Of a stretch of DNA of 64,000 nucleotides, positions 518 to 59,832 are shown one piece after another. The position numbers and the translations under genes are program-made. Origin of the DNA: a virus; the IMG/VR virus record IMGVR_UViG_3300047557_002769, positions 1 to 64,000 of that record; one strand, written 5' to 3'. Every line of letters begins with the position of its first letter. The first letter of the stretch is position 1. The notes under the pieces are model-generated. The model was not told where the DNA came from. It saw only the letters and a program-made list of their open reading frames with translations, and searched no databases.

Positions 518-525
518 TATTTATC
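518..525 (-). promoter_or_regulatory. T4-type late promoter motif (GATAAATA) before gp13
   Basis: Minus-strand GATAAATA, 17 bases upstream of the gp13 start codon, followed by an AAGGAT Shine-Dalgarno sequence. It overlaps the stop codon (524-526) of the preceding gene. T4 late promoters have TATAAATA; marine relatives use NATAAATA. The match is seen; promoter use is inferred. Confidence 0.55.
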
Positions 526-3379
526 AACCAATTCTTCTCCATAAAGTAATCGATGAGACATACTCAATTACTTCTCCGATAGCTATTGAGTTATAGTTTG
601 TAACTATATCGCTAGTATAAGAATCATTAAACACACCTTCCACCTGTGTATACTCTAAAGCACCATTATCAGTATAGGCTATTGGTCCAAGATAAGGTAT
701 AAATTCAGTACCTGTATATTGAACCCCGGAGTTTACATAATCTTCACTAAAAGAAGATGTATAGTTAGTTTGTGTTAAAAAAGCTTGATTATATCCAGCA
801 TAATCAGCTTCATAGATCGAAATATTAGCGAATACTTTATCATAATACCCTATATAAACTAGTTGGTCAGAATAACTTGTATTATATGTATTAGTATAAT
901 TGTTTATTGAATTATCAAAAATCACCGCATCGAGCGGTGATGTATCCAAACCGGTGTATGTAGTGTTATAATTAGATTCGGAATATAAATTCACACTAGA
1001 ATAGTCTGTGGATCCAATATAAGCGTCAATAGTGTAAGTTGCTGGTGATGTGTATTCTGTTGTATAGACTTCCGCACCGCCACTACCACCCAGAAAGACA
1101 GTTACATAACCTATAGTGTAATTAGTATCAGCTGTATATACGATCGTGTTAGATATAAAGAGAGAAGTATATTCGATTGGACCTGTGTAGTTGGTATCGT
1201 ATTGACCTATATAGGACGTGCTAGGCCCCACGTAACCATCTATAAATCCTGCAAAGTCAATATCACTGGTATAAACACTAGCTACTACCGAATAATTGAG
1301 ATCTCCTGTATAGTTAATTAGGTACCCGGGTATACCCTGATACAGCTCAGAATAACCTAGAAATGTAACATAAGAAATATCATAAGTTGAATCAAATGTA
1401 ACAAATGATTGATCACCCGGTGAAGTATAAAATGCAGTTTGATCGTAGATCGTCGTAATAATATTTGTATATGCTACGCCTCCTTCGCCAGTATACTCGA
1501 TAGTGTACCCTATATCAGGGTCGGTGTATTGTAATAGGGTAGTATAAGTTAAATTTGGACCGGTGTATAAGATAGGACCGGCAAAATCTCTTGATCCTAG
1601 GTAAGTTAAACTCTCAAACGCTCCACCCGTGTCTCTTGCGTATATCGCATTACCGGTGTAGTAACCACCTACAACACCAATATAAACATCTGTACCAGTG
1701 TAGTAAGCAGAAATAATATATTGAACAGACCCCGGTCCGACGAAAGGTACATCGCGATTATAGTTGGTTGTGCCTGTATAAATTGGGTTAACAACAGTAA
1801 ATGTTGCAAAAGTCGAAAAGACAGTATCCGGGTCAGTATATACTGTACTAAATGTATCAAAAGTTGCGTACTCTGGTTCAACAATATTTGTATAATATGC
1901 TCCGCTGTTGTATATACTTGCTGCGTCACCTGTATAGCTAGCTAATGTGTAACTATTAGTAAAGGTAGAGGTAAAATCTAATTCATTACCACCAATGTAT
2001 TCTTTCTCGCTTAAGAAAGTAAACTCACCTGTATACGGTATCTGATATGCCAAACTATCATACCCGAAGATATACGGCGTGGTGTAATAAATGTCGTCTA
2101 AGGTATAGCTAGACTCACCTACAAATATAGTCGAGTAATCAGTGCTATCTGCAATACCGGTATATAGATTTGAAGCTCCGGTATAAATACTGACATTTAA
2201 AAAGTTTATATACGATTCTAAATCATTTGTGTAATCTATGTCACCGATAAATGTAGTTGCATTTGTATATACAATAAAACTAGTATAATCTGTATCATAA
2301 AATCTAGTCCCCGTGTATGTATTAAGGGGGCCGAAATAAGTACCACCTGGTCCAAAATAGTTAGTTGTTGCAATTGGTACAGCATTATTTTCGTAAATTA
2401 CATTGTATAAACTAGTAGGGCTGTTAAAGAAAGTATCTAGTGTATAGTTTATTGGACCGGTATAAAAAATAGGACCAGTATACGTCTCATTTAGATATTC
2501 TTCACCGGTGTACGCAATGTCACCAGGTCCGGTGTAAACATTATCATAACCAAATGGCCCTGTGTAGGAGACTGCATCTTTTAAATAGTCGGCGATATAG
2601 TTAATAGAATCATATGTTAGTATATAACCATCCGGGGTTAAATAAATCGTATCGGTTGATCTTCTTAGATCATAAATTGTACCTCTCGCTTCCCACACGC
2701 CGTTCTCTGGAGCTGATTCCTGCAATACATAATAATTTTTACCTGATGAATTAATATAGTCTTCAACTATTTTTATAGTGTTGTCAATATCTGCAACACT
2801 AAAAACCTGTAACTCACTGCTTACTAATTTGCTTGGACTTATGTAGCTAGAAGTTCCGCTGTCTATCTTCTGCCATAGATGGTATGTTGACTGAACCTCT
2901 GTAAAATTATTAAAAGTATCCTGTATACTTCCTCTACTAACCCAGGTATCGCCATCCGAAGGAGCAGACTCACCGAGATAGTAAGAAGTTATTCCACCAG
3001 ATAAAACAACGCTTAAAATTTCAGCAGCTACGTTAGCGTGAGTATCTTTATTTTCTTGTAAAATAGTTGTATTACCAACTAGATTCAATCCAATAAAATA
3101 GGGAGGATCAGTAGCTACCTGCGTTGATTGTATTTGAGATAAAGTATAAACATTAGATACAATATCTACGTTTGATCCGCCCTCACCGGAAGCACGTGCA
3201 GTATCAGTAAAATTACCAATAACGCTACCTTGAGCGTTACCGAAAATAATAGTACCTGTGTAAGTACCACCGGCCATACGGCGTAATACTTCGCGGTAGA
3301 AGCTATCAAGCTCTGACGCAGATGCTTCTAAAAGCTCTACACCAGATAGGGTGCTGGTGCTATATACAATACTGACCAT
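524..3379 (-). CDS. Tyr-Thr-Gly repeat virion protein A (951 aa)
   Basis: Probable tail-fibre or baseplate-attached structural protein; no enzymatic function is visible. Residues 1-265 hold three diverged copies of a module ending in a pattern like S-A-P-x-x-G-x-W-x-x-x-G-x-I-x-D (about 37-61, 131-155 and 214-240). From about 270 to 935 the chain is made of short Y-T-G / F-I-G / Y-T-x units spaced mostly 6-10 residues apart, such as YTGPGDIAYTGEEY and YTGPIFYTGPINYT. It ends in ITLWRRIG, nearly the same end as the larger protein at 15429-19706 (ILWRRIA). There is almost no Cys or Lys in the repeat region. The stop and start overlap neighbours (TGATG with the upstream fibre gene). Tyr- and Gly-rich repeat proteins are known in marine T4-like phages, but their role is not established. 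Confidence 0.75.
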   Translation of the reverse strand: MVSIVYSTSTLSGVELLEASASELDSFYREVLRRMAGGTYTGTIIFGNAQGSVIGNFTDTARASGEGGSNVDIVSNVYTLSQIQSTQVATDPPYFIGLNLVGNTTILQENKDTHANVAAEILSVVLSGGITSYYLGESAPSDGDTWVSRGSIQDTFNNFTEVQSTYHLWQKIDSGTSSYISPSKLVSSELQVFSVADIDNTIKIVEDYINSSGKNYYVLQESAPENGVWEARGTIYDLRRSTDTIYLTPDGYILTYDSINYIADYLKDAVSYTGPFGYDNVYTGPGDIAYTGEEYLNETYTGPIFYTGPINYTLDTFFNSPTSLYNVIYENNAVPIATTNYFGPGGTYFGPLNTYTGTRFYDTDYTSFIVYTNATTFIGDIDYTNDLESYINFLNVSIYTGASNLYTGIADSTDYSTIFVGESSYTLDDIYYTTPYIFGYDSLAYQIPYTGEFTFLSEKEYIGGNELDFTSTFTNSYTLASYTGDAASIYNSGAYYTNIVEPEYATFDTFSTVYTDPDTVFSTFATFTVVNPIYTGTTNYNRDVPFVGPGSVQYIISAYYTGTDVYIGVVGGYYTGNAIYARDTGGAFESLTYLGSRDFAGPILYTGPNLTYTTLLQYTDPDIGYTIEYTGEGGVAYTNIITTIYDQTAFYTSPGDQSFVTFDSTYDISYVTFLGYSELYQGIPGYLINYTGDLNYSVVASVYTSDIDFAGFIDGYVGPSTSYIGQYDTNYTGPIEYTSLFISNTIVYTADTNYTIGYVTVFLGGSGGAEVYTTEYTSPATYTIDAYIGSTDYSSVNLYSESNYNTTYTGLDTSPLDAVIFDNSINNYTNTYNTSYSDQLVYIGYYDKVFANISIYEADYAGYNQAFLTQTNYTSSFSEDYVNSGVQYTGTEFIPYLGPIAYTDNGALEYTQVEGVFNDSYTSDIVTNYNSIAIGEVIEYVSSITLWRRIG

Positions 3380-14919: not shown

Positions 14920-15432
14920 TTACGATTTGCTTTGTTGTGCTTTTTGCTGTGCTTCTTTGGCGTCTTGAATATCATCGAGCTCGTCAAATACATCAATGAA
15001 AGACATATTCTTTTCAGACATGTAATTCATCATTTGATGATGAATAATAATGTTTAGCATCAGCATATCAGGTGCACGTCTGATAGCTGTTTTAATTTTA
15101 TCTTCTGCATTAGCAATGAAAGGCATTTCGAATGCTTTCATTTTCGCATCGAAAAGAATTTTAAGCTTGTTATTCTCTTCTGCAGCAAGACGCTTTTTAC
15201 GATCAAATTCTTGTTGTCTACGACGACGCGTCTCCAGCTCATTACGCTCGCGACGCATCTTTTCAACATCGAACTCATCAAGGATACGGTCCCACATTGC
15301 ATTGACACCGCGGGCCATTTTCGGAGGCACGGTAAGTTCTGCAACGGATGTTACACCGCTATCATTAATAAGTTCAAAACGAACTTTAGTTTTTTCAACA
15401 TCAACGAAATGGGGGTTTTTAATAATACTCAT
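14920..15432 (-). CDS. Coiled-coil protein of unknown role (170 aa)
   Basis: Not recognised by function. A beta-rich N-terminus (VDVEKTKVRFELINDSG) is followed by a long charged helix (residues about 50-105; MRRERNELETRRRRQQEF, then KKRLAAEE) and a helical Met-rich C-terminus. The start was placed at 15432 because that ATG overlaps the stop of the YTG-repeat gene as ATGA and is preceded by GGAGAAG; an ATG 15 bases upstream is less likely. It follows a structural gene directly and could be a chaperone or attachment factor for it. Confidence 0.6.
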   Translation of the reverse strand: MSIIKNPHFVDVEKTKVRFELINDSGVTSVAELTVPPKMARGVNAMWDRILDEFDVEKMRRERNELETRRRRQQEFDRKKRLAAEENNKLKILFDAKMKAFEMPFIANAEDKIKTAIRRAPDMLMLNIIIHHQMMNYMSEKNMSFIDVFDELDDIQDAKEAQQKAQQSKS

Positions 15433-18400
15433 GCGATTCTTCTCCATAGAATGTATTCAGTTGCATCAATCACATCATTATTTATAACGGCTTCATTAGC
15501 TGCGACTTCAGATGTATATGTAGGTACAATATCCACGTTACCGGTATAATTAACAAGTAGGTTATATGCTTCTGAAACAGTATAGGATTCATTAAAGGTT
15601 GTAGTGTTGATGTAGTCTATTTCTGAGCCAGTGTAGCTATCTGCAACAAAATCTACAGTTGCGGTATATTCAATATCCCCGGTATAGATAACACCAGTTG
15701 GACCTACATACTCTACTGATGTGGTATATGTGTTTGTGTATTCTGGATCAGCAACTGTGTAAATAACTTGACCGGAATATTCAAGGGTTGTATCGTACTT
15801 ATCTTGAGTGTATTGTAAGGCTGTATAGCTCGTCACATAACTCACATCAGTATATAACGTAGGTTCTGGTATACTTAAAAATACCGAAAGATTATAACCG
15901 GCATAATCCGCCAGTAACGTGGTGTAAAAAGCGTTATAGTCAGTTGAATAATTTAACTCAGTTGAGGTATAGTAAACAACAAGACCGGTATATGGTATAA
16001 AAGTTGTATCTGATGTATATAATATACCCAATGTGTATTCGTTTGTAAGAGTGTACTGAATAGGCCCTATAAAAAATACTTCACCAGAGTATAATAGCTC
16101 TGCACCTGCAAATGTATCGAACCCAGGCCCGCTATAATCAGTTGCGTCTGGTACGCTATCATTCGTATAGTTTATAACAAGCGAGTAATTAATCGCAACA
16201 GTGTATATCGGTTCTTCGTTATATAATGTATTTGTAAATCCAAGAATGCGATCGTAAACTGCATTAAACGTACCGTCCCCTGTATAGTAAACGGCACCAG
16301 GTCCAGTATAGTACAACGGCGTAAAGCTATCGTAAGCGGTAGGTGCTGATCCTGTGTAGCTAGTTAAAGGGGTTGCATTCACATAACTTCTTAAGTCACC
16401 GAAAACATCATAACTTGTAGGCTTAATAATAGTACCCGTATAGAAATCAGCACTTATGGTGTATGATGAGGTAGGACCGGTGTACGTTATCAATCCAGTA
16501 TATACTACATCTATAGCATATAAATCTTCTCTTGTATATTCAACAGTTCCAGTGCCAATATAAAGATTTTTGTCTACGTTTAATGTAGAGTATTGAGGGT
16601 TACCATAGCCTACGTCTCTAACGTAGCCCGTCGACGTATCGTATAATAAATCAATAGTATAAGGTACTTCAATTGTATAGATATCTAAAGCGTATTCATC
16701 CCCGGTGTAGTCTACGGTTGTGTAAATATTTTCATATTGAGTAGTATATGTTCTATTAAAATCTTGAGCATAAAACTCGGGTTCTGACAAATATTCATCA
16801 TCTTGAGGACCAGCGAATCCTAAAGTATAAGTAGGTGTTGAAGCAAAGTTCACACTCTCGTACATTTCTGGTGCAGTATACCCAGGCAGACCTGAAAAAA
16901 TGTTTGTATACTGTTCACTGTACAAAGCAGCACTAAAACTAGTTAGCGGACCTGCAGGTGCTGGTATTGCAGGACCTTCGTATGATAATATATATTCTTG
17001 ATTAAACGTATTAATATACTCACTTAAAAAATAAACTATTTCTTTAATATATTGCGCACCGGTAGTATACGTGGCATTATAGTACTGAAGTTGCCCTCCA
17101 TATAATAATTCATTTGCTGTGTATTGTTCAGAGTAAAAAATATCCACACTTGGACCTGTATACTCACTGCTAAGTAGGTATTCACCTAAAATACCAGTAT
17201 AATAGGGATTTATTTGTGTATACACACCCCCGTCTTCAGTATTATATAACCGGGTAAACGTACCTACGTACCCGTCTTGGTATATAGTTACATAATACTC
17301 TTCTGTACCTTCTCCCATGTAAGTTGCTGGAGAAGGTACACTGTTTAAGTACTGGCCAGGTCCAACATACGAGATTGAATAAGCATTAGAAAATAAAGTT
17401 TCTGTTATAAAACTTATGTAAGATAGCGGGGATGTATATGTATTTACAGCAGCATTATAAATGTCGTCGTTGCGTTCATAGTACTCCGAAGGTGTAACCA
17501 TTTCTTGTACATAAACGGTATCACCACCAGTATATGTCAAGGGCTGCAAAAATATAGCGTACGCTACACCAACTTCTTCCGTATAGGTAAGTGTAGGCCC
17601 GGTGTATAAAGTATCATACACCGGTTCTAAGGTGTATGGGGTGCTTTCAAGATATTCTGTACTTAGTGTATAAGTAAGAACTGTAGAATAGGATAGTTGA
17701 TAATTTTCAATAACTGAGCCAAGGTATAACGATGTAGATGCGCCAACATAATCTATACCTACTGTATAAGGTGTAGCGGTCTCATAACTTAAAGTGTATT
17801 GAGTTTCAAGTCCAGAATATTCTTCTATGGAACTATAAACTTCACTGTCTTCAATCGAGTAGACATTATCTGCTACATCAGTGTAAGAACCGGGGCCTGT
17901 GTAAAGTGAAGCCTCTGGATCCCTTACATATGTTTCAGTTGAATAAATTGCTAGGTTGTACGAGTTAGGATCTTCATTAAAAATAAGCGTACTTGAGAAT
18001 TCACCGACAAGATAATCTTTTTCAGCAGAAAGATATGCGTTGTCTAGACTGTATGTAGTGGTGTAGTTGGTAGTAGTAGAAAATGCAGACACGGAGGCAT
18101 AGCTGCTTATACCAGAATTATATATATTTTCATCTGAGTAGGAAATACCACCAGTATAAGACGATGTTGAGTTATCTTGATAACTGGTAGAAGCTCCTAC
18201 GTATACCGTAGCTAATGTGTATAGCTCACCTAGATACAGCGGTAAGGAATCTTCGTAGGAAAGCTCTACATCTCCTTCATAGAAATTTCTTGTATAGCTT
18301 TCTAATGTATATGTAGCAGGGGGATTGGTATATGAACCGGGTCCAGAGTATGTTAATGGATCTGCGGTATATGAAGCATAGCTTACCCCTGCAGCTGTGT

Positions 18401-19706
18401 AAAGAATAGGACCAGTATATACTGAGGTGTATGCAAGCACGTAACCAGCGTAAACGTCACTGCTAACATTAATATAGCGAGGCTCACCCCCATACGTTTC
18501 TACATAAGACAGAACATATTCTGAAATATCTCTAGATTCATAGAGCTCTAAATTAACATAATTAACATTACTATAACTACTTGTAACTGCAGTATAATCA
18601 GTACCTATATTCTCGTAAATAATATCAGCGAACTTACCTTGATACTCAAGCTCATTAGTAATATATTGAGTAGTGGAAAACAACGTGCTGCTTTCATAAA
18701 CTGCAGCAATACCGGGCGCAGAGAACACGCCAATATCATTTACGTACGAGCTATTAGCATTATTATAGATCCCTGTACCGCCGTAATTAGTGCCTGAGTA
18801 GGATGAAGAAACAAAAGTATTTGTAGCACCAGTATAATCTAAGCTATAGCTAACGCTCTGTGTTCCAGCAATTCTTTGTCTTGTGTCGCGAACACTACCT
18901 ACATTTAACCAAGTACCTGTTGCAGGTGCTGTTGGGGCTAGTCTATAGGTACCAATACCCGTGTTAACAATCTTCTCGCGTATCTTTTTTGCAAATCTGC
19001 TTAACTCAATATCGTTAAGTCTTTGTAGTGTACCATCTCCATTAAATTTTAGAGGTCTATTTACACGTGGGATATCACCAGTTGAGTATAACTTTTTAAA
19101 TAAAAACTTGTTGCTGTTAGTTACTGTTGAGCTAAAAACATCGTCAATAGCACCTAGGTTCTGCCAGATGCCGTCATTAGGTACTTCGGATCTTAGAATA
19201 TACGAACCGGGGCCTTCCGAATCGATAAGGTATTGGTGTATTTCATCTACCAGTGCATCAATGCCTAATTTGATTGGAGCGGTATTAGAAAGATTAAGAA
19301 ATGCGACTTTAGGGGGTTCGGTACCAGTAGGTGTATTAAGATCCTGAAAAAATTGCTTTGCAATTATAGAGATAGATGCTGTAGAAGTTGTAGCAGACTC
19401 GTAGACAGCTGCCCCGGTATAATCTCTAGACACATCATAGAGAATAGATGTACTAGTATACCCCGTCGAGCCACTAACGTAAACACCTGTTCCAGAAATG
19501 ACCTCGTTAACGTTGCCTATTAGACTGGTGTCGTAAAAAGATCCAATAAAAGTTAAATTAGCTCCTGGGGTATCTGTTGTATAGATACTGCCTGGTCCAT
19601 CTTCTGAGGCAAATGCTTCTAGTACAACGTTTGCAAGTTCACTGAACTCAGCCTGAGTCATAGGCTGAACTGTTCCCTCGCCTCTGTATACGAGAGGGTA
19701 AGACAT
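15429..19706 (-). CDS. Tyr-Thr-Gly repeat virion protein B (1425 aa)
   Basis: Larger relative of the protein at 524-3379. Residues 1-285 contain three copies of a helix plus G-x-G-[ST]-Y/I ... P-x-x-G-x-W-x-x-x-G-x-x-x-D-[TV] module (ends near 60, 190 and 275). From about 290 to 1410 it consists of short aromatic-Thr-Gly units such as YTGPILYTAAGVSYASYTA and YTGPGAVYYTGDGTFNAVY. It ends EYILWRRIA. The composition is rich in Tyr, Thr, Ser, Gly and acidic residues and nearly free of Cys and His. It lies between the short fibre gene and the coiled-coil gene in the late minus-strand operon. A long fibrous virion protein is the best reading; binding partner unknown. Confidence 0.75.
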   Translation of the reverse strand: MSYPLVYRGEGTVQPMTQAEFSELANVVLEAFASEDGPGSIYTTDTPGANLTFIGSFYDTSLIGNVNEVISGTGVYVSGSTGYTSTSILYDVSRDYTGAAVYESATTSTASISIIAKQFFQDLNTPTGTEPPKVAFLNLSNTAPIKLGIDALVDEIHQYLIDSEGPGSYILRSEVPNDGIWQNLGAIDDVFSSTVTNSNKFLFKKLYSTGDIPRVNRPLKFNGDGTLQRLNDIELSRFAKKIREKIVNTGIGTYRLAPTAPATGTWLNVGSVRDTRQRIAGTQSVSYSLDYTGATNTFVSSSYSGTNYGGTGIYNNANSSYVNDIGVFSAPGIAAVYESSTLFSTTQYITNELEYQGKFADIIYENIGTDYTAVTSSYSNVNYVNLELYESRDISEYVLSYVETYGGEPRYINVSSDVYAGYVLAYTSVYTGPILYTAAGVSYASYTADPLTYSGPGSYTNPPATYTLESYTRNFYEGDVELSYEDSLPLYLGELYTLATVYVGASTSYQDNSTSSYTGGISYSDENIYNSGISSYASVSAFSTTTNYTTTYSLDNAYLSAEKDYLVGEFSSTLIFNEDPNSYNLAIYSTETYVRDPEASLYTGPGSYTDVADNVYSIEDSEVYSSIEEYSGLETQYTLSYETATPYTVGIDYVGASTSLYLGSVIENYQLSYSTVLTYTLSTEYLESTPYTLEPVYDTLYTGPTLTYTEEVGVAYAIFLQPLTYTGGDTVYVQEMVTPSEYYERNDDIYNAAVNTYTSPLSYISFITETLFSNAYSISYVGPGQYLNSVPSPATYMGEGTEEYYVTIYQDGYVGTFTRLYNTEDGGVYTQINPYYTGILGEYLLSSEYTGPSVDIFYSEQYTANELLYGGQLQYYNATYTTGAQYIKEIVYFLSEYINTFNQEYILSYEGPAIPAPAGPLTSFSAALYSEQYTNIFSGLPGYTAPEMYESVNFASTPTYTLGFAGPQDDEYLSEPEFYAQDFNRTYTTQYENIYTTVDYTGDEYALDIYTIEVPYTIDLLYDTSTGYVRDVGYGNPQYSTLNVDKNLYIGTGTVEYTREDLYAIDVVYTGLITYTGPTSSYTISADFYTGTIIKPTSYDVFGDLRSYVNATPLTSYTGSAPTAYDSFTPLYYTGPGAVYYTGDGTFNAVYDRILGFTNTLYNEEPIYTVAINYSLVINYTNDSVPDATDYSGPGFDTFAGAELLYSGEVFFIGPIQYTLTNEYTLGILYTSDTTFIPYTGLVVYYTSTELNYSTDYNAFYTTLLADYAGYNLSVFLSIPEPTLYTDVSYVTSYTALQYTQDKYDTTLEYSGQVIYTVADPEYTNTYTTSVEYVGPTGVIYTGDIEYTATVDFVADSYTGSEIDYINTTTFNESYTVSEAYNLLVNYTGNVDIVPTYTSEVAANEAVINNDVIDATEYILWRRIA

Positions 19707-46144: not shown

Positions 46145-46366
46145 TTATTCCCCTTCGTCCTTATAAGGCACTGCAATGTACGGCCATTGAGAGACACGTT
46201 TTGTTATTTCAGACTGATTCTTAGCAAGTTTCATGATGAAGTACTGCGTCTGTTTAATTTCTTCAGCTAGCGTAGTAAGATTATCTTGAATAATACTTAT
46301 GTTTTTCTCAATTTCCGTAATTCTATTTTTCGTCAAGTCCAGTTGCTCGTCGTAATATTCTGCCAT
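46145..46366 (-). CDS. Small coiled-coil protein (73 aa)
   Basis: Helical heptads across residues 8-50 (LTKNRITEIEKNISIIQDNL, TTLAEEIKQTQYFIMKL), then VSQWPYIAVPYKDEGE. Unknown family. Its start lies inside the 3' end of gp59 (44-base overlap), so it is coupled to gp59 translation. Confidence 0.55.
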   Translation of the reverse strand: MAEYYDEQLDLTKNRITEIEKNISIIQDNLTTLAEEIKQTQYFIMKLAKNQSEITKRVSQWPYIAVPYKDEGE

Positions 46367-46934
46367 ATTTTTCTTTAGAGAAAGTAAGAAAAGGTTCGTA
46401 TTTTTTAATAATACGAGATAAATCAGGCCAGACTAAATCACCAGTAAGAGAGTTATCTAGGTCTGGGACAAAGTTGAGTAACTTATTGAGTATGACCAGA
46501 GTCTCAATAGACACATCACCTCTCAGGTACATCTTGATTATATATGGATGCTGAGAGTTTACGGTATGCAGCGCATCGCTGAAGTCGATATCTTTTTTAA
46601 GGCAGAATGTATTAACTCTACTAACTTCTTTTTCGAACGTATAGCTCATTGACTCAATACGTTTCTTCCAGGATAGATATCTTTCTTTAGCTTCGGTATC
46701 AAAAACACCACCCCATCTATCTCCAGACGTAAAGTTAGCAACCAGAAAGTCAACAATTTCTTTTTCTGAGTAAGACTCAGCTACCTTTTTAATTGCGAAA
46801 AGATCTGTCCGTTTATGAAAGGCCTGCCGCGAGGCTTTAACTCTTCCCTGTTGTTTAATAACGTCGTATTTTTCAGTTGTAAAATGAAGTCTCAAAGCGA
46901 GGTAGTAACGATATACCTCGAACGCATAATCCAT
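46323..46934 (-). CDS. 59: DNA helicase loader gp59 (203 aa)
   Basis: Loads the gp41 helicase on gp32-coated forks. Landmarks: FEVYRYYLALRLHFTTEKYD, VIKQQGRVKASRQAFHKRTD then LFAIKKVAE, AESYSEKEIVDFLVANFTSG, and YIIKMYLRGDVSIETLVILN in the C-terminal domain, agreeing with T4 gp59 (YDVIKYNW; YQKRRDKYFFQKLSEKY). The start at 46934 has AAAGGA 7 bases before it and matches the T4 N-terminus. An ATG at 46961 and a TTG at 46970 are alternatives. Confidence 0.85.
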   Translation of the reverse strand: MDYAFEVYRYYLALRLHFTTEKYDVIKQQGRVKASRQAFHKRTDLFAIKKVAESYSEKEIVDFLVANFTSGDRWGGVFDTEAKERYLSWKKRIESMSYTFEKEVSRVNTFCLKKDIDFSDALHTVNSQHPYIIKMYLRGDVSIETLVILNKLLNFVPDLDNSLTGDLVWPDLSRIIKKYEPFLTFSKEKYGRILRRATGLDEK

Positions 46935-46970
46935 ATCATTATCCTTTGGTGTTTTGTCCATACAAAACAA

Positions 46971-47240
46971 TTAAAACGGTAGATGTCCTCTCGGCTTCAT
47001 CAAGTTAGCTTGTTCAGCTTCTACTTGAATTTTCTCTTTAAGTTTACTGTTTACAAGCGAACCGATTGCCTCGATATCAATATCAACCTCGTTACAATAG
47101 TTGATAATAGCCTCCATGTAGCTTATTTTGTACTTTACGACCATTTCGTCAATAAAGATAGAAAATTCATTGGGTGACCGAAAGCGCTTGGTAATAACAA
47201 ACGTATCGGTAAGAGTTCTAACATCAGTTTCGTCAATCAT
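46971..47240 (-). CDS. 33: Late-transcription co-activator gp33 (89 aa)
   Basis: Bridges host RNA polymerase and the sliding clamp at late promoters. Landmarks: FRSPNEFSIFIDEMVVKYKI, SYMEAIINYCNEVDIDIEAI, GSLVNSKLKEKIQVEAEQAN, then a hydrophobic end RGHLPF that could be the clamp contact. It sits before gp59 and gp32 as in T4. Its presence explains the NATAAATA late promoters. T4 gp33 has 112 aa. It overlaps the upstream membrane gene by 4 bases. Confidence 0.85.
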   Translation of the reverse strand: MIDETDVRTLTDTFVITKRFRSPNEFSIFIDEMVVKYKISYMEAIINYCNEVDIDIEAIGSLVNSKLKEKIQVEAEQANLMKPRGHLPF

Positions 47241-47557
47241 AGAAAGAAGATAAGTCCTAGTAGTACTGCCTGAATGGCAAATCCCACACCAATAGTAACT
47301 ACCATCAGCATGTCTTTAAGTATAGTCGATCTAATGAAGTAAAGCAATAGACCGGCCCATAAGAGTAGCGTCATATCTAGGGAAGGTAACTTATCCGACA
47401 AACCAGCTTTAACTGCAAGAAGGCTAGGGATAGTTGCACAGTTCATTACAATAATGGACAGCCAGGCAAATGTATCGGCTGTACCTTGAGATAGACCAGA
47501 AAGAGAGTTACTGGCCGACTGTTTTACAGAATTAAGAACTTCAGTAAATTTAATCAA
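47237..47557 (-). CDS. Three-helix membrane protein, holin candidate (106 aa)
   Basis: Soluble N-terminus (about 25 residues), then hydrophobic segments near 28-48 (FAWLSIIVMNCATIPSLLAV), 60-77 (SLDMTLLLWAGLLLYFI) and 82-106 (MLMVVTIGVGFAIQAVLLGL). The gene overlaps the SleB-type hydrolase stop by 4 bases (ATGA), a typical holin/endolysin arrangement. No similarity to T4 holin gpT is visible. A membrane role other than lysis is possible. Confidence 0.6.
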   Translation of the reverse strand: MIKFTEVLNSVKQSASNSLSGLSQGTADTFAWLSIIVMNCATIPSLLAVKAGLSDKLPSLDMTLLLWAGLLLYFIRSTILKDMLMVVTIGVGFAIQAVLLGLIFFL

Positions 47558-48090
47558 GATTTTTCTCCATAAAAAATATGACGACCAATTTTAGTAATAC
47601 GAGGTAGATTCCAGTTAGGGTTTACATAGTCGGCGTGGTAATACATTGCACCATGTAATGAGGGAAGTCTGAAGTTCTCCAGTAGTACCTTCTTTGCTAC
47701 TTCTTCCGATTCAATAAACTCTTTAGAACGTTTTGCTACCTTAGGACCTGGTTCGCAATACCAGGAAAATTGACAGATGACTCTATCGTAAATTTTTGTC
47801 TTTTGAAATACTACATCACAAATATCATCTGGAAATTTACCTGAGTTAGCACGATTAATAGTAACCTGCGCAACTGCTACTTTACCTTCAAATGGCTCTG
47901 TTGCAGCTTCGTAGTAGATGTTTTTAGAAAGACATCCAAGTTGCTTTTCTCTCTCAGCCATAGTAATATATTTTTGATTGTATTCTACGGTTTTAAGATT
48001 TTCAATCTTAAAATGTGTAATGTAATATACCCCATAGCCAATAGCAATCATGGACAATAGACGTACTATCCAAGTGATTAACTTAGACAT
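47554..48090 (-). CDS. SleB/CwlJ-type cell wall hydrolase, endolysin candidate (178 aa)
   Basis: Hydrolase_2 family. The N-terminal segment LITWIVRLLSMIAIGYGVYY (residues 4-23) is a signal-anchor that could export it. Catalytic domain: GCLSKNIYYEAATEPFEGKV with E61 as likely acid, AVAQVTINRANSGKFPDDIC, QFSWYCEP and GAMYYHADYVNPNW. It likely cleaves peptidoglycan glycan strands at lysis. Adjacent to a holin-like gene. T4 uses gpe lysozyme instead, so this is a replacement endolysin. Ribosome binding site AAGGAGAT. Confidence 0.85.
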   Translation of the reverse strand: MSKLITWIVRLLSMIAIGYGVYYITHFKIENLKTVEYNQKYITMAEREKQLGCLSKNIYYEAATEPFEGKVAVAQVTINRANSGKFPDDICDVVFQKTKIYDRVICQFSWYCEPGPKVAKRSKEFIESEEVAKKVLLENFRLPSLHGAMYYHADYVNPNWNLPRITKIGRHIFYGEKS

Positions 48091-48113: not shown

Positions 48114-48458
48114 TTAGCCGTTGTAGACTTTGGCTAATCCTTCAGCCACTAAAAGTTCGCTAACAGATGGCTTATCTGGGCTCAGATAGATATCTGCTAG
48201 CCAACGACCGTACTTATCTGTCTTATGAGACTTAAGTAACACAGGCTTGTTTAATACAAGCTCGGTCAAACGCTGCTTTGCAGCCCTTGCGGATTCTCTT
48301 AGTTGAACGTTAGGGTCATTCATCTCTTCCGTATCAATGCCCTTAAGACGGAAACGTACGTTAACAGAAACAGTAAAGCCAAGCTGCACTGTTGCATCAA
48401 CGGTATCACCGTCTACTACGTTTGTGACTGTTGCGTTGTAGATGTATTGTTGTTTCAT
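48114..48458 (-). CDS. Staphylococcal nuclease-like protein (114 aa)
   Basis: SNase/thermonuclease OB-fold: YIYNATVTNVVDGDTVDATV, VRFRLKGIDTEEMND (the R-L-x-G-I-D-x-x-E motif), ESARAAKQRLTELV, and KYGRWLADIYLS (the second catalytic Arg in Y-G-R). No signal peptide is visible, so it acts in the cytoplasm, perhaps on host DNA or RNA. It begins 10 bases after the hairpin that follows the tmRNA and has no clear ribosome binding site. Confidence 0.85.
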   Translation of the reverse strand: MKQQYIYNATVTNVVDGDTVDATVQLGFTVSVNVRFRLKGIDTEEMNDPNVQLRESARAAKQRLTELVLNKPVLLKSHKTDKYGRWLADIYLSPDKPSVSELLVAEGLAKVYNG

Positions 48459-48468
48459 AATAGTTAGC

Positions 48469-48500
48469 GCTGGTTGATTCTGTTTCCAAGTTCAACCAGC
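48469..48500 (-). other. 9-bp stem-loop closing the tmRNA transcript region
   Basis: GCTGGTTGA (48469-48477) pairs with TCAACCAGC (48492-48500) around a 14-base loop. It directly follows the tag-stop hairpin of the tmRNA and precedes the nuclease ATG by 10 bases. It has no U-tract, so it may be a processing or stability stem of the tmRNA coding piece rather than a terminator. Confidence 0.55.
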
Positions 48501-48782
48501 AAAACTCAGATGGCTTAAGCAGCCATCAAGAATTGCTCATCGTTTGCAATTACTCTTTTTGCTTCTACGGCCGGGAATTCCCAACCCTAACGGCTTTCGC
48601 ATTGCCGGATCGTCCATCTTACTACTCTTTACCCTGTCGAAACCAGTGCATCCCCATCAAAAGCACATCTAATTCCTCACCTTGTGGCGTCTCATATTTC
48701 GGAGCCGAGCCTGATATGCTTTTGGTGGAGATGGCGGGAGTCGAACCCGCGTCCAGAACACTTTTCGTTTAACTTCATACGA
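48501..48782 (-). ncRNA. ssrA: Circularly permuted two-piece tmRNA (ssrA)
   Basis: Rescues stalled ribosomes and tags their products. On the minus strand the 3' (acceptor) piece comes first: GACGCGGGTTCGACTCCCGC, then CATCTCCACCA with encoded CCA ending at 48723. A 67-base spacer follows (48656-48722), then the 5' piece starting GGGGATGCACTGGTTTCGAC at 48655. GGGGATG and CATCTCC form a 7-bp acceptor stem with the G3-U70 pair and A73 that alanyl-tRNA synthetase reads. The T arm is GCGGG-TTCGACT-CCCGC. The spacer is closed by AAAGCA/TGCTTT. The coding piece carries a tag frame at 48515-48547 whose stop sits in the loop of GATGGCT-GCTTA-AGCCATC. The exact 5' end of the acceptor piece is not known. 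Confidence 0.95.
48515..48547 (-). other. tmRNA tag reading frame (ANDEQFLMAA)
   Basis: GCA AAC GAT GAG then CAA TTC TTG ATG GCT GCT TAA encodes ANDEQFLMAA, the same length as the E. coli tag ANDENYALAA with the same first four residues and final AA. GCA was taken as resume codon by matching the E. coli GCAAACGACGAA context. Reading from an upstream GCA would give five more residues (AKRVI). The hydrophobic C-terminus fits ClpXP-type recognition. Confidence 0.8.
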
Positions 48783-49364
48783 TCATACAGTCAGAAGTAA
48801 GTAACCTTCTTGATTATAGAACTTACTGACCTGGTAATTATATTTATCTAAGAAGGATAAATCAAGCCCAAAACGGTTACGTTCCGCCCAATTACCACCT
48901 TCAAATGGACCATCTTCGTAAATTCTCAAATCGTCACAAATAATGACGTCCTTTTTACCTGATCGATGTTTACTAATGATCTCGATCTCTTCCTCGAGTG
49001 GAAAATTAAGATCTGAATCCATGATTACGTTTCCGTTATTCTTATCATGTTCCGGTAGATGTGCATCTAGATAGAACACGATTGATTCTTCATCGCTAAG
49101 AATAGGTAGTAATACGTTAAGATAATCTATAGAATTATTATGATAGATAGTAACTTTTGACGAATCAAACTTACTTCTACAAAGATTAACCATCTCAATA
49201 TCAACATCACAGCTGAATAAATGATTGAAATCGAATTCAGCTAAAGCATAGCTCAACGAATTACCTCTAAAGCAACCGGTTTCTACAAACATCGTTGAAC
49301 CATTAAGCTTTTTAAGGTACTTTATCTTTTCACAACGTTCATTAAAGTTAATCAATGATCCCAT
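48783..49364 (-). CDS. SAM-dependent methyltransferase-like protein (193 aa)
   Basis: Rossmann-like start: GSTMFVETGCFRGNSLSYAL (motif I V-E-T-G-C-x-x-G-N-S), FNHLFSCDVDIEMVNL with acidic ends of strand 2, IVFYLDAHLPEHDKNN and DVIICDDLRIYEDG. Fits class I methyltransferases of the FkbM/TylF-like kind. The substrate is unknown. Good GGAGGG ribosome binding site. The stop codon is next to the tmRNA acceptor piece, and a candidate tmRNA promoter lies in its last 60 bases. Confidence 0.6.
   Translation of the reverse strand: MGSLINFNERCEKIKYLKKLNGSTMFVETGCFRGNSLSYALAEFDFNHLFSCDVDIEMVNLCRSKFDSSKVTIYHNNSIDYLNVLLPILSDEESIVFYLDAHLPEHDKNNGNVIMDSDLNFPLEEEIEIISKHRSGKKDVIICDDLRIYEDGPFEGGNWAERNRFGLDLSFLDKYNYQVSKFYNQEGYLLLTV
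48813..48818 (-). promoter_or_regulatory. Candidate -10 element (TATAAT) for the tmRNA
   Basis: Minus-strand TATAAT about 30 bases before the tmRNA acceptor piece, inside the upstream gene. No good -35 box is visible. A GATAAATA late motif lies further up at 48841-48848, but such 8-mers are expected by chance in AT-rich coding DNA. Tentative. Confidence 0.3.
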
Positions 49365-49417: not shown

Positions 49418-49747
49418 TTAAACTGGCTTACCTAAGTTTAATTTACCGAAACCCGTTGATATGATGCAAGCAACACCTGTATCCTTGAGTAGCATTACAG
49501 TCGTATAGTCACCGGTCTTTTCATTCAATAATAATATTGTGACCAGATTGTTTGGTTTTTCGTTAGTATGAAAATTGTCTGAGCCAACGAATACTGGTAC
49601 CTCCCCTCCATCCTTAAGATTCTTAAGCAGCTCGGCTGCTGGCATGCACAGGACAGGGAGTGGTACTTGCTTCGGTGAACTAAGTTGAGCTGACGAGGTT
49701 AAACTTAGACTCGTAAAGATCGCGATAGCGAATAAGCTCTTTAACAT
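49418..49747 (-). CDS. Small exported protein of unknown function (109 aa)
   Basis: Residues 1-20 (MLKSLFAIAIFTSLSLTSSA) form a signal peptide with cleavage after S-S-A. The mature part has VLCMPAAELLKNLKDGGEVP, LVTILLLNEKTGDYTTVMLL and GVACIISTGFGKL, with two cysteines that could form a disulphide. No family named. Its first 68 bases overlap the nuclease gene upstream. Periplasmic location inferred; one of two small exported proteins in this region. Confidence 0.6.
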   Translation of the reverse strand: MLKSLFAIAIFTSLSLTSSAQLSSPKQVPLPVLCMPAAELLKNLKDGGEVPVFVGSDNFHTNEKPNNLVTILLLNEKTGDYTTVMLLKDTGVACIISTGFGKLNLGKPV

Positions 49748-50351
49748 GGTTGTCTCTCTTTTCTACAAATATTTGAGGGTCGTCATCTTCTACTGCAATT
49801 GCAACAACAATTTGACTTACCGGTATCTCGAATCTCTCCTCAAACATAATAGCGTAAGCAGAGCATTGCATAAAGTAATTACCTATGCTATCTTTGTCTT
49901 TTTGCTTAGATGCTGTCTTAAAGTCAATAATGGATAGTCTTCCATTAAAAAAAGCTACACAGTCGACTGTACCTGCCATCCTTAAATGGTCAGAGTACAT
50001 GCGTATTTCCTGTGCATGTATATTATCGATTTGATGTAAGACGGGTTTAAATTTTGTAAATAGTTCGACTTCTAACGGTGTTTGTAGTTTAGGTGGTGTA
50101 TTGTTAAGGTAATCCTCACATGCTTTATGTAACTTTGTACCTCGAGTAGATGCTCTTCTTGAGATAGCATTAGCCTGCTCATCTCCAACTCTTTTTCTCC
50201 ATTCGAAAATATACTTGCTATTATAAGCGGACAATACAGTAGTCACCGAAGGGTACTTATTGCCCTCCGGTGTAACATAATATCTAGTACCATCCTCATT
50301 TAGCTGCGTAAGCTTTGGTACAGATTTTTCTAATTTTACATGTGTAAACAT
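49680..50351 (-). CDS. PD-(D/E)XK exonuclease, RecB/Cas4-like (223 aa)
   Basis: Nuclease-core residues: RGTKLHKACEDYL (the H), AGTVDCVAFFNGRLSIIDFK (D ... D-x-K) and the trailing YFMQCSAYAIMFEERF (Q-x-x-x-Y motif of RecB-family nucleases). N-terminal YYVTPEGNKYPSVTTVLSAY is common to phage members. It likely digests DNA ends in replication or host-DNA breakdown. Directly follows phoH. Confidence 0.85.
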   Translation of the reverse strand: MFTHVKLEKSVPKLTQLNEDGTRYYVTPEGNKYPSVTTVLSAYNSKYIFEWRKRVGDEQANAISRRASTRGTKLHKACEDYLNNTPPKLQTPLEVELFTKFKPVLHQIDNIHAQEIRMYSDHLRMAGTVDCVAFFNGRLSIIDFKTASKQKDKDSIGNYFMQCSAYAIMFEERFEIPVSQIVVAIAVEDDDPQIFVEKRDNHVKELIRYRDLYESKFNLVSST

Positions 50352-51122
50352 TTACTCGGTTGAGTCCTCATATTTTAGCTTAGCAAGAATATAATCTCTA
50401 ACTAAAGAGCTTCTTACAATATCATCTACTTCAAATTCAATTCTAGTAAAAGCATTCATATGATGTGCAATGTCAAAGAACTTTAACAGGCCGGATTTAT
50501 CATTACTCTTTTTAAGATCAGTCTGTCTATAATCACCGCACCAAATAATTTTCGATCGATAACCGACACGAGTCATTACGGTATCAATCTCTTCAAAGTT
50601 CATATTCTGCATCTCATCCACAATAATAATTGCATCGTCAAAACTCATACCCCGAATGAACGATGTAGAAATGAATTCTATATGACCTTGTTCAGAAAGT
50701 CTATCGTATGCGTCTTTCCTGTCGAATAATGTATGACAAATTTGTCTATATGGTTGTTGATAAATTTCTAGCTTCTCGTCTACGTCACCAGGTAGGTGAC
50801 CCATCTCGCGGGACTGTACAGCTGATCTTACTACAATGATTTTATTAAAGGGATTAGTTTTTTCGAGGACTTCCTCTAGTGCTTTATAAAGTGCAATGAA
50901 AGTTTTTCCTGTCCCAGCTACCCCGTGTAATGCGATAAAATAGTCTCCACGTTTATAAGCTTCAAAAAATCTTTTTTGATTTTCCGTTAATGGGTTAAAT
51001 GTTCTTAAATTGTCTAACTTTAATTTTAGTGTGTTGTTTGTGCTTGGTTGTTTTGTATGTGGGCGTTCTTCAGTATTTGTTTCGTTTGTGACAGTGTGTT
51101 TTGCAATTCTTTTGTTAGACAT
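50352..51122 (-). CDS. phoH: PhoH-like ATPase (256 aa)
   Basis: P-loop NTPase common in marine phages. Walker A ALHGVAGTGKTFIALYKAL, the PhoH signature VVRSAVQSREMGHLPGDVDE, Walker B DDAIIIVDEMQNM and the sensor KIIWCGDYRQTDL. N-terminal 45 residues are polar linker. The start was set at 51122, which has GAGGT in front; the open frame upstream runs through the terminator hairpin and is not plausible. The biological role of phage PhoH is unsettled; RNA-related helicase or nuclease activity is proposed for the family. Confidence 0.92.
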   Translation of the reverse strand: MSNKRIAKHTVTNETNTEERPHTKQPSTNNTLKLKLDNLRTFNPLTENQKRFFEAYKRGDYFIALHGVAGTGKTFIALYKALEEVLEKTNPFNKIIVVRSAVQSREMGHLPGDVDEKLEIYQQPYRQICHTLFDRKDAYDRLSEQGHIEFISTSFIRGMSFDDAIIIVDEMQNMNFEEIDTVMTRVGYRSKIIWCGDYRQTDLKKSNDKSGLLKFFDIAHHMNAFTRIEFEVDDIVRSSLVRDYILAKLKYEDSTE

Positions 51123-51133
51123 AATACCTCTAC

Positions 51134-51164
51134 AAAAAAAAGACCACAGGGGGCCCTGTGGTCT
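51134..51164 (-). terminator. Rho-independent terminator before phoH
   Basis: On the minus strand an 11-bp GC-rich stem (AGACCACAGGG with CCCTGTGGTCT, tight loop) is followed by eight T residues (51141-51134). Separates the late-promoter gene at 51198-51443 from phoH. Confidence 0.92.
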
Positions 51165-51197
51165 AGGTGGAGTTAAAAGAAAAGAATAGTTCAATAA

Positions 51198-56677: not shown

Positions 56678-57078
56678 TATAGTTTAACGTGACTTTTGTG
56701 AATCTTACACTGTATCCACGAGTTATACCACTTATCTCTATCTTCTAATACACAGCGTACGAATTGCTCTTTAGCTTCTAAGTAATTAGTTGTGCCTTTA
56801 TTAGGACACAAATGGATGATTTCTCTCTTAAAGTTTTCTTTGCCTAGTTGCTCGATATCTGCTTTGAGCTCATCAGAAGACGACCAATACTCTTTCCAGT
56901 CGGATTCTGCTTTGTATCTTTTTCGGACTTTGTTGACCTGTTTCCGTTTTGTTGACCAGAAGAATTTTTTCCCAATGTATTGTCTACCAGATAGCAGATT
57001 CGTGATGATGTATACAAAACCATAATATTCTCCAGGTGTCAAGAAAGGTTCATTATTATAAAGCCATTCACTATTCAT
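56677..57078 (-). CDS. GIY-YIG-type endonuclease (133 aa)
   Basis: GIY-YIG core in variant form: YGFVYIITNLLSGRQYIGKK (G-F-V-Y ... Y-I-G), KFFWSTKRK, a W-K-E-Y-W-S-S-S-D-E-L segment and EAKEQFVRCVLEDRDKWYNS with the catalytic Glu (K-E-Q). Similar proteins occur in T4-like phages as putative putative homing or host-DNA nucleases; freestanding, with no DNA-binding tail seen. The start overlaps the stop of the zinc-ribbon gene as ATGA. Confidence 0.75.
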   Translation of the reverse strand: MNSEWLYNNEPFLTPGEYYGFVYIITNLLSGRQYIGKKFFWSTKRKQVNKVRKRYKAESDWKEYWSSSDELKADIEQLGKENFKREIIHLCPNKGTTNYLEAKEQFVRCVLEDRDKWYNSWIQCKIHKSHVKL

Positions 57079-59593: not shown

Positions 59594-59832
59594 TGGCTTA
59601 CCCATTGTTGAAGAACGGTTGATGTTACAGCTCCAGAAATACGTTTAATTTCAGTATTACCTTCTAACAAAACCATAGTAGGAACTGAACGAATACCGAA
59701 GTCCTGAGCAATTTCAGGGTTTACATCAATATCAACAATCTCAATAGGAATGTTTAAGTTTGTATTTTCAATAGTTTTAGCAAGTGCTTTACAAGGCTGG
59801 CACCAGTCAGCAGTGAATCTAATAATTCTCAT
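59590..59832 (-). CDS. Thioredoxin-like reductant (80 aa)
   Basis: Short thioredoxin fold with active site W-C-Q-P-C-K (RFTADWCQPCKALAKTIE) and cis-Pro RSVPTMVLLEG. At 80 residues it is close to the mini-thioredoxins/NrdH size. Placed between nrdA and nrdB, so it likely re-reduces the NrdA C-terminal CxxC. The ATG at 59832 is 2 bases after the nrdA stop and follows GAAGG; the frame extends 24 bases upstream without a site. Confidence 0.88.
   Translation of the reverse strand: MRIIRFTADWCQPCKALAKTIENTNLNIPIEIVDIDVNPEIAQDFGIRSVPTMVLLEGNTEIKRISGAVTSTVLQQWVSQ

Follow-up and report, generated by a model that had tools for sequence, protein, structure and literature searches.

A circularly permuted tmRNA gene in a T4-like phage and gene-bearing spacers in its relatives

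The tmRNA gene and its parts

The stretch of DNA analysed here, called the window, comprises bases 1-64000 of a 163,234-base virus record with T4-like gene content, whose nearest named phages, judged by the gp6-like protein, are Melnitz (39% identity), Synechococcus phage BUCT-ZZ01, HTVC008M and Mosig. On its minus strand the window carries a tmRNA gene in circularly permuted form, that is with the acceptor piece placed ahead of the 5′ piece. The gene is matched over the full length of two Rfam models, RF04321 (tmRNA_permuted; 48784-48515, model positions 1-213/213, 129.2 bits against a cut-off of 47, E 5.6e-25) and RF01850 (beta_tmRNA; 48855-48464, model positions 1-331/331, 98.9 bits against a cut-off of 84), the latter being the best older Rfam subtype and the best match of its clan; in the Rfam scan of the whole window no other family reached its cut-off. 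ARAGORN called a tmRNA* at 48424-48815 with the tag ANDEQFLMAA. The gene is complete, and the strength of these matches lies far beyond chance. Its parts are as follows.

48464..48855, minus strand: permuted tmRNA gene, beta_tmRNA limits (RF01850, ARAGORN)
48723..48784, minus strand: acceptor piece with T arm, acceptor 3′ strand, A73 and encoded CCA (RF04321; stem pairing)
48750-48746 and 48738-48734, minus strand: T stem GCGGG/CCCGC, 5/5 pairs
48733-48727, minus strand: acceptor 3′ strand CATCTCC, 7/7 acceptor pairs, G3-U70 included
48726, minus strand: A73
48725-48723, minus strand: encoded CCA
48656..48722, minus strand: 67-nt spacer, expected to be lost on maturation (from the piece boundaries)
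48515..48655, minus strand: 5′ (mRNA-like) piece from G1 to the tag stop, with the GGGGATG acceptor strand from 48655; contains GGTTTCGAC and the tag frame
48515..48547, minus strand: tag frame GCAAACGATGAGCAATTCTTGATGGCTGCTTAA, ANDEQFLMAA and stop, resume codon GCA (ARAGORN)
48509..48527, minus strand: hairpin spanning the tag stop codon, GATGGCTGCTTAAGCCATC (terminator-like consensus match)
48837..48865, minus strand: sigma-70-like promoter match TTGATT-17-TATAAT, 5′ of the gene (10/12 matches; weak)

An earlier note on this DNA had read here a permuted tmRNA encoded by a T4-like phage, with the acceptor piece before the 5′ piece on the same strand, a 67-base spacer between them, and the acceptor stem, G3-U70, T arm, tag frame and tag-stop hairpin intact. 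All of this is borne out by the two Rfam models, ARAGORN, the stem pairing, the gp6 neighbours and the T4-like genes, the strand that the note left unnamed being minus; the comparison with Rfam covariance models, which it had proposed, gave the full-length matches over cut-off to tmRNA_permuted and beta_tmRNA. Its interval, 48501-48782, was close, and the gene more properly runs from 48784, or from 48855 by the beta model, to about 48464. As five sigma-70-like sites were found in the window and 3.7 are expected by chance, the evidence for a promoter is weak.

Two other features of the record may be mentioned. ARAGORN finds 28 tRNA genes for all 20 amino acids at record positions 88328-103503 (L145 4328-19503), about 40 kb from the tmRNA, and the window encodes two very long proteins (524-3379 and 15429-19706, minus strand) in which repeated YTG-like motifs are abundant, perhaps fibre proteins.

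The phage operon around the tmRNA gene

The neighbours that could be named by PHROG matches are listed here.

50352..51194, minus strand: PhoH-like protein, upstream (phrog_170, E 7e-86)
49680..50351, minus strand: exonuclease, upstream (phrog_298, E 1.3e-75)
48114..48458, minus strand: SNase-like nuclease, directly downstream of the tmRNA (phrog_452, E 2e-29)
47554..48090, minus strand: endolysin, downstream (phrog_938)
46971..47240, minus strand: gp33-like late transcription coactivator, downstream (phrog_254)
46323..46970, minus strand: gp59-like helicase loader, downstream (phrog_269)

The order in the window is PhoH, exonuclease, two unknown genes, tmRNA, SNase-like nuclease, endolysin, an unknown gene, gp33 and gp59. 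With unknown genes omitted, Melnitz has PhoH, a PDDEXK nuclease, tmRNA, gp33 and gp59; HTVC008M has PhoH, exonuclease, tmRNA and gp33, with gp59 outside the stretch viewed; and Mosig has PDDEXK, tmRNA, gp33, thyX and gp59, with PhoH outside the stretch viewed. The operon PhoH-exonuclease-tmRNA-gp33-gp59 is common, whole or in part, to the window, these three phages and many contigs. Genes of both types stand 5′ of a same-strand gp59 or gp33, 16 sources having been typed in one dedicated comparison: a beta-type tmRNA in the window, L006, L008, L010, L012, L018, L022 and L034, and an alpha-type tmRNA in the same position in Melnitz, HTVC008M, Mosig, L032, L036 and L045. The gene also occurs at other sites: in S-CAM3 and BUCT-ZZ01 it lies elsewhere, near tRNAs, in Yut2 and DLP6 it adjoins tRNA genes outside the gp33/gp59 operon, and in L014 it is distant from gp59. 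In the deposited records of HTVC008M, S-CAM3 and BUCT-ZZ01 small hypothetical CDS run across the tmRNA, and no tmRNA is annotated in the stretches viewed.

A further survey took 196 viral tmRNA loci, each with a different spacer and the majority detected through tmRNA patterns, and looked up to 6 kb away for homologues of nine window genes. Among the matches listed, 68/196 loci have at least one window-gene homologue at this distance and 128/196 have none, so the lineage is wider than the operon. Counted on the same strand, and again among the matches listed, the exonuclease lies upstream in 42/196 loci and PhoH in 20/196 (downstream in 1), while gp33 lies downstream in 46/196 (one more inverted), gp59 in 42/196 (one more inverted) and the endolysin in 51/196 (two upstream, one of these inverted).

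Spread among phages and descent

Relatives were also sought by gp59 alone and thus without selection for tmRNA. Among the 46 phage contigs obtained, several of them near-duplicates, a permuted tmRNA is present in 34/46 at E<=0.001 and in 33/46 over the cut-off; the 12/46 without a tmRNA match comprise 8 contigs under 6 kb and others of 8.2, 8.9, 42 and 77 kb. RF04321, applied to the whole records of 12 named phages, finds a permuted tmRNA in 9: in 5 of the 8 picked by gp6 (Melnitz, HTVC008M, Mosig, S-CAM3 and BUCT-ZZ01, with none in Cr30, phiN3 and SRB7757) and in all four that were picked by tmRNA match (Yut2, DLP6, X1 and QDWS595). Within the order of one betaproteobacterial genome a permuted tmRNA is rare and scores over the cut-off in 5/120 genomes, a count that includes the centring genome, itself picked for having one.

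The comparison with host ssrA, which the earlier note had suggested as a guide to origin, was made by a tree of 267 spacer-free tmRNAs (1 window, 178 phage, 61 beta-host and 27 alpha-host), from which the genes of 14 of the 197 viral spacers, failing the conditions of the script, were left out before duplicate removal. The window falls in a 10-tip clade (support 0.951), whose other nine tips (L009, L012, L018, L024, L346, L355, L395, L466 and L505) each carry homologues of window genes, arranged in the usual order and no more than 6 kb away. This clade is part of a 173-tip clade (support 0.832) in which all tips are phage (172, counting the window) except for one from a beta host; outside it lie 60 beta-host and 7 phage tips, the deep part of the tree being weak with a short alignment and midpoint root. 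The window tmRNA groups with phage rather than with the sampled host tmRNAs.

The spacer and its closing helix

The spacer is bounded by the following elements.

48713..48722, minus strand: 5′ arm of the closing helix, AAAGCATATC (10/10 pairs with 48669-48660)
48660..48669, minus strand: 3′ arm of the closing helix, GATGTGCTTT (pairs with 48722-48713)
48656..48659, minus strand: conserved TGAT directly 5′ of the 5′ piece, placing A(-2)U(-1) where RNase P is expected to cut

The earlier note had closed the spacer by AAAGCA/TGCTTT; the closure stands, but the helix is longer, being formed by the whole of both arms with 10/10 pairs. Across 42 distinct phage spacers, the first 10 nt and the 10 nt ending 4 nt before the 5′ piece pair in 381/420 cells. 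When partners were dealt anew the mean was 257 (sd 8), and 0/5000 shuffles, which ignore relatedness, reached 381; among the nine pairing offsets tried, the next best gave 232. A larger set of 143 distinct arm pairs from 182 spacers, compared at 8 positions, pairs in 1044/1144 cells against a maximum of 702 in 2000 shuffles, which likewise ignore relatedness. A helix with strong covariation closes the spacer, which mostly ends in UGAU: the last four bases in the 182 viral spacers are TGAT in 133 and TAAT in 29.

The final U(-1) is the optimal base at an RNase P cleavage site (PMC9433436). In folding, the acceptor stem and the spacer helix of the window are predicted as one near-continuous helix, and the single-sequence fold of the window helix is modestly better than shuffles (z -2.56). 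A pairing of A-C-C-A with U-G-A-U is also predicted; it could slow RNase P, because pairing of the leader with RCCA inhibits the enzyme (PMC9433436).

It was considered whether the closing helix is a trait of phages only. This was dropped, as alpha- and beta-host spacers can also be read as short hairpins (not counted), so that the claim of a difference is confined to length and gene content. Phage spacers, all required to encode CCA, have a median length of 80 nt (n=197, among the matches listed). Host spacers, for which CCA was not required, measure 3-52 nt with a median of 29 in beta hosts (n=63) and at most 56 nt in alpha hosts (n=27 of 29). Of the 63 beta-host spacers, those that follow a CCA measure 3-4 nt, apart from a single one of 30 nt, and those without CCA measure 26-52 nt.

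The 67-nt spacer of the window contains no ORF of at least 15 aa starting inside it. Its near relatives L018, L355, L395 and L466 have spacers of 67-72 nt in which no ORF reaches the spacer end, and in L006 and L009, with tmRNA parts intact, the spacers are of 29 and 46 nt only.

Protein genes within the spacers of relatives

Three acceptor-sequence scans of viral contigs, together with the loci found earlier, gave at least 254 viral loci with at least 197 distinct spacers, and many of the long ones are filled by a single ORF. An ORF was taken to fill a spacer when it starts in the first 26 nt, stops in the last 12 nt and has at least 25 aa. Such ORFs occur, among the matches listed, in 29/75 spacers of at least 90 nt, where 1000 shuffles keeping both ends give a mean of 3.7 and a maximum of 11, and in 16/19 spacers of at least 150 nt (shuffles: mean 0.14, maximum 2), with three of the 16, all SNase spacers, nearly identical to one another and two more (L063, L136) forming a pair. 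The window spacer has no ORF from spacer start to terminal stop, which is what marks the gene-bearing spacers of the relatives. The tmRNA gene is retained around the cargo: Rfam finds a permuted tmRNA over cut-off in 13/13 gene-bearing loci tested and, in another scan, in 15/15 sources (gene-bearing spacers, empty spacers and one host).

The architecture was compared in 41 gene-bearing spacers of at least 80 nt with an ORF of at least 20 aa. The ORF ends with TGA and one further nucleotide in 33/41, an RBS-like motif lies in the first 14 nt in 32/41 against 23/141 of the other spacers, and the closing helix is kept (221/240 cells; shuffled mean 167, maximum 189). In Melnitz, L037/L042 and the L426 family the ORF runs into the 5′ piece. 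It is close to established that relatives carry real protein genes, which open with a ribosome-binding site directly behind CCA and close with a UGA that belongs to the conserved UGAU ahead of the 5′ piece.

The cargo is varied. An SNase is encoded in the spacers of L024, L346 and L396 (PF00565, 48 bits), a thioredoxin in that of L485 (PF00085, 75 bits) and a GIY-YIG homing-endonuclease-like protein in that of L640 (phrog_314, E 9.4e-42). L012, a near relative of the window, reads a PF09791 oxidoreductase-like domain (45.6 bits) from the spacer into the 5′ piece, with no clear start codon. Much of the rest has no Pfam name: of ten cargo proteins six gave no match at E 0.01 and a seventh only a sub-cut-off one, and in a second set of ten, nine gave no match over cut-off. 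A 24-aa hydrophobic peptide with an acidic start and an LL end is conserved in 89-nt spacers, where it extends up to the terminal TGA (L435, L439, L446, L690, L692, L695, L701, L706, L709, L714, L719, L724, L731 and L734); the labels zinc-ribbon-like, hydrophobic and membrane used for cargo are readings of the letters by eye. Two extra scans, which required an RBS and ATG directly after CCA and hence give a biased sample, yielded a full permuted gene in 82/90 new loci, more families and many hydrophobic peptides of 21-24 aa. Six spacers that no single ORF fills were viewed for that reason: those of L691, L712 and L726 (174, 177 and 183 nt) hold two overlapping ORFs, the second stopping at the terminal TGA, and those of L646, L654 and L668 (215 nt) hold one ORF and then, by eye, a second.

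Some candidates were set aside. The supposed tRNA genes in the spacers of L095 and L100 are T-arm-like letters only, in which ARAGORN calls no tRNA, and the acetyltransferase label for the 122-aa cargo of the L680 family was a motif-based guess for which Pfam gives nothing over cut-off. Searches of isolates found none with the 122-aa cargo and no close one for the L422 region. On the reverse strand of L358, a 7.9-kb contig, the first 620 bases hold an acceptor piece followed by an SNase gene and more ORFs; no 5′ piece was found in the contig, and the tmRNA is broken or rearranged.

Where sequences could be compared, most cargo has changed in a manner typical of purifying selection, with pN/pS below 0.5 in 10 of the 12 families or pairs compared (without a significance test). 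The values are 0.04 for L024/L346 (13 synonymous and 2 replacement changes), 0.24 for L063/L136 (2 and 2 changes), 0.47 for L476/L063, 0.31 for L008/L450, 0.07-0.48 by pair in the zinc-ribbon-like family, 0.18 over 8 sequences of the 122-aa family, 0.19 over 11 distinct sequences of the 24-aa peptide, 0.30 for the L679-like, 0.15 for the L687-like and 0.10 for L673/L652. No purifying signal is seen in the L422-like family (0.92, 3 sequences) or in L453/L486 (0.73).

The cargo is also found in different settings. Homologous cargo (about 36%) occurs with different tmRNA acceptor stems in L476 and in L063/L136, and the spacer cargo of L459 has a counterpart directly upstream of the tmRNA in L431 (73%). 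The SNase lies inside the spacer in L024/L346, and a distant homologue lies directly downstream of the tmRNA in the window, the window SNase and the L024 spacer protein being 33.6% identical over 116 aa (E 1.4e-9). Further away on the minus strand of the window, a thioredoxin-like stretch (59596-59832) is 44% identical to the L485 spacer thioredoxin, and 56770-57018, a possible homing endonuclease, matches the GIY-YIG-like product encoded in the L640 spacer (35% over 83 aa, E 2e-4).

Relation to known tmRNAs

The tmRNAs of mycobacteriophages and of phage G have the standard gene order. Phage-encoded tmRNAs have been described in mycobacteriophages Bxz1, Cali and others, in Bacillus phage G and in DS6A (PMC4131195); that of DS6A is little more than a tRNA-like domain (PMC4131195), whereas the window tmRNA is complete. 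The view of the earlier note that known phage tmRNAs are one-piece did not hold, since the two-piece tmRNA of phage Melnitz was published in 2022, and an ARAGORN survey in the same paper found 53/133 unique phage tmRNA structures to be two-piece, 50 of the 53 from marine or aquatic phages (PMC9004378). A two-piece phage tmRNA is an already known rarity, and the window copy is a new member of the kind. Melnitz, a Methylophilales phage (MZ577097), resembles the window in its permuted ssrA, T4-like nature, site between PhoH/exonuclease and gp33/gp59, encoded CCA and TGAT spacer end. It differs in scoring best with alpha_tmRNA (106.7 bits), where the window scores with beta_tmRNA, in the glutamine riboswitch RF01739 over cut-off beside its tmRNA, where no riboswitch reaches cut-off in the window, and in its 142-nt spacer with an ORF running into the 5′ piece, where the window spacer has none. 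The Pelagibacter phages HTVC008M and Mosig share the permuted tmRNA and the operon with the window but have alpha_tmRNA as their best older model. In Yut2, DLP6, X1 and QDWS595 (phages of Stenotrophomonas, Xanthomonas and Alcaligenes) the gene is likewise permuted, with CCA encoded and spacers of 31-126 nt; three of the four pass the beta model cut-off, and X1 is over that of tmRNA_permuted only.

As to bacterial lineages, the earlier note gave the permuted form to alphaproteobacteria and some cyanobacteria but left out the betaproteobacteria, whose type the window copy is. The betaproteobacterial permuted tmRNA (RF01850; Azonexus, Dechloromonas, Thauera, Accumulibacter) is like that of the window in piece order, tRNA-like domain and tag type, whereas the sampled beta hosts have spacers of at most 52 nt and the window has CCA and 67 nt.

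In a 2025 tmRNA database paper two permuted tmRNAs have an insertion in the intervening sequence, a tRNA-Ala in one and a repetitive element in the other (PMC11915505); as in the relatives described here, the spacer tolerates insertions, and the passages on these cases mention no protein-coding spacer. A literature search that covered few subscription papers, and is thus not proof, gave no report of protein genes in permuted tmRNA spacers. Gene-bearing tmRNA spacers look new.

Processing, function and alternative readings

It is highly probable that the window carries a working two-piece tmRNA gene belonging to a phage lineage. This reading draws on the sequence and architecture, the helix seen by covariation, the conserved operon and the grouping with phages, from which we infer processing, charging, rescue and a benefit to the phage. 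A single minus-strand precursor would be transcribed through the operon, and its acceptor stem would stack on the helix that closes the 67-nt spacer. Host RNase P would then cut before G48655 and 3′ processing would stop at the encoded CCA (48723), so that the spacer is released; permuted precursors are expected to be processed by RNase P and tRNase Z (reviewed in PMC3985003). U(-1) and the covarying helix are consistent with cutting into two mature RNAs, and go no further than that. The two RNAs would be held together by pairing in the acceptor stem and charged with alanine via G3-U70. No SmpB was found in the phage record, the one record searched, therefore the SmpB of the host must serve, if the record is complete; with it bound, the tmRNA would append ANDEQFLMAA to the unfinished chains of ribosomes that stall in the infected cell. 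The likely function is ribosome rescue together with host SmpB, and this is likely also the benefit, because host mRNA decay in lytic infection should yield many non-stop messages. Either rescue or redirected proteolysis, as the earlier note had proposed, is plausible.

In the latter case the phage tag would direct proteins of host or phage origin towards another protease. The viral loci give 98 distinct ARAGORN tags, counted after filtering by a loose pattern and length, and only one of them is shared with the 26 host tags sampled, a diversity that would suit such a role. Yet hosts use the commonest phage endings (LAA 63, MAA 15 and IAA 9 of 98) as well (LAA 8, VAA 8, IAA 4 and MAA 3 of 26) and no feature points to another protease, which makes this reading unlikely. 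The window tag differs little from ANDEQFAIAA, ANDERFAMAA and similar host tags, and appears host-like, without sign of redirected proteolysis. Its -MAA ending had looked unusual, and the tag as a phage hallmark was dropped, since sampled hosts also use MAA, IAA and VAA.

Alternatively, the tRNA-like part may act as a decoy that ties up SmpB and blocks host rescue, a role suggested for a molecule like the tag-less tmRNA of phage DS6A (PMC4131195, PMC11915505). The phage record lacks an SmpB of its own, so that of the host would have to be shared; however, a decoy needs no tag frame, resume codon or tag hairpin, all of which are kept in the window, and the relatives have open tags by ARAGORN, the 98 distinct ones counted above, which renders a decoy quite improbable. 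Selection of the locus mainly as an expression and processing cassette for spacer genes, with the tmRNA secondary, would explain the gene-filled spacers of the relatives with their aligned ribosome-binding sites and stops, but it is very improbable given the window, L018, L355, L395 and L466, where spacers of 67-72 nt hold no ORF to the spacer end, and L006 and L009 with 29 and 46 nt, in all of which the tmRNA parts are intact. The least probable reading is a recently captured host ssrA, a passenger without phage role that will decay: tmRNA genes are known integration sites whose fragments travel with phages (PMC9004378) and the tag is near those of hosts, but the gene is intact, it lies in a conserved operon and in the 173-tip clade that excludes 60/61 beta-host tips, and its encoded CCA with 67 nt stands against at most 52 nt in the sampled beta hosts, synteny and tree having already weakened the idea.

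In the relatives the spacer serves as a slot for genes, which opens with a ribosome-binding site and in most cases closes with a UGA stop. In the window phage this slot is empty, and a homologue of one cargo nuclease lies directly downstream. In gene-bearing relatives RNase P would cut one nucleotide after the stop codon, or in frame where the gene enters the 5′ piece. The excised spacer message would then stand at or past the edge of non-stop, and its product would build up only when trans-translation is saturated. Such messages recall arfA of E. coli: its mRNA undergoes RNase III cleavage, and trans-translation normally eliminates the product (PMC3985003). That the spacer acts as an expression slot, its output coupled to tmRNA maturation and ribosome rescue, with ArfA-like accumulation when trans-translation is saturated, is proposed tentatively as a hypothesis by analogy, and may well prove wrong.

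Concluding remarks

The novelty sits in the gene-bearing spacers of the relatives, the window copy being of a known kind. The tmRNA gene appears to be of long standing in a phage operon that is common to phages of SAR11 and OM43 hosts, and with its 28 tRNA genes and a rescue RNA the phage of the window would supply a wide decoding set and the means of rescue together. The piece that is discarded in tmRNA maturation serves the relatives as a site for genes, and one transcript would there act both as a rescue RNA and as an mRNA that owes its 3′ end to the same cut. Annotators would miss small genes of this kind, conserved hydrophobic peptides of 21-27 aa among them, as they lie inside an RNA gene. 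Finally, gene-bearing spacers offer a simple test of whether phages sense ribosome stalling.
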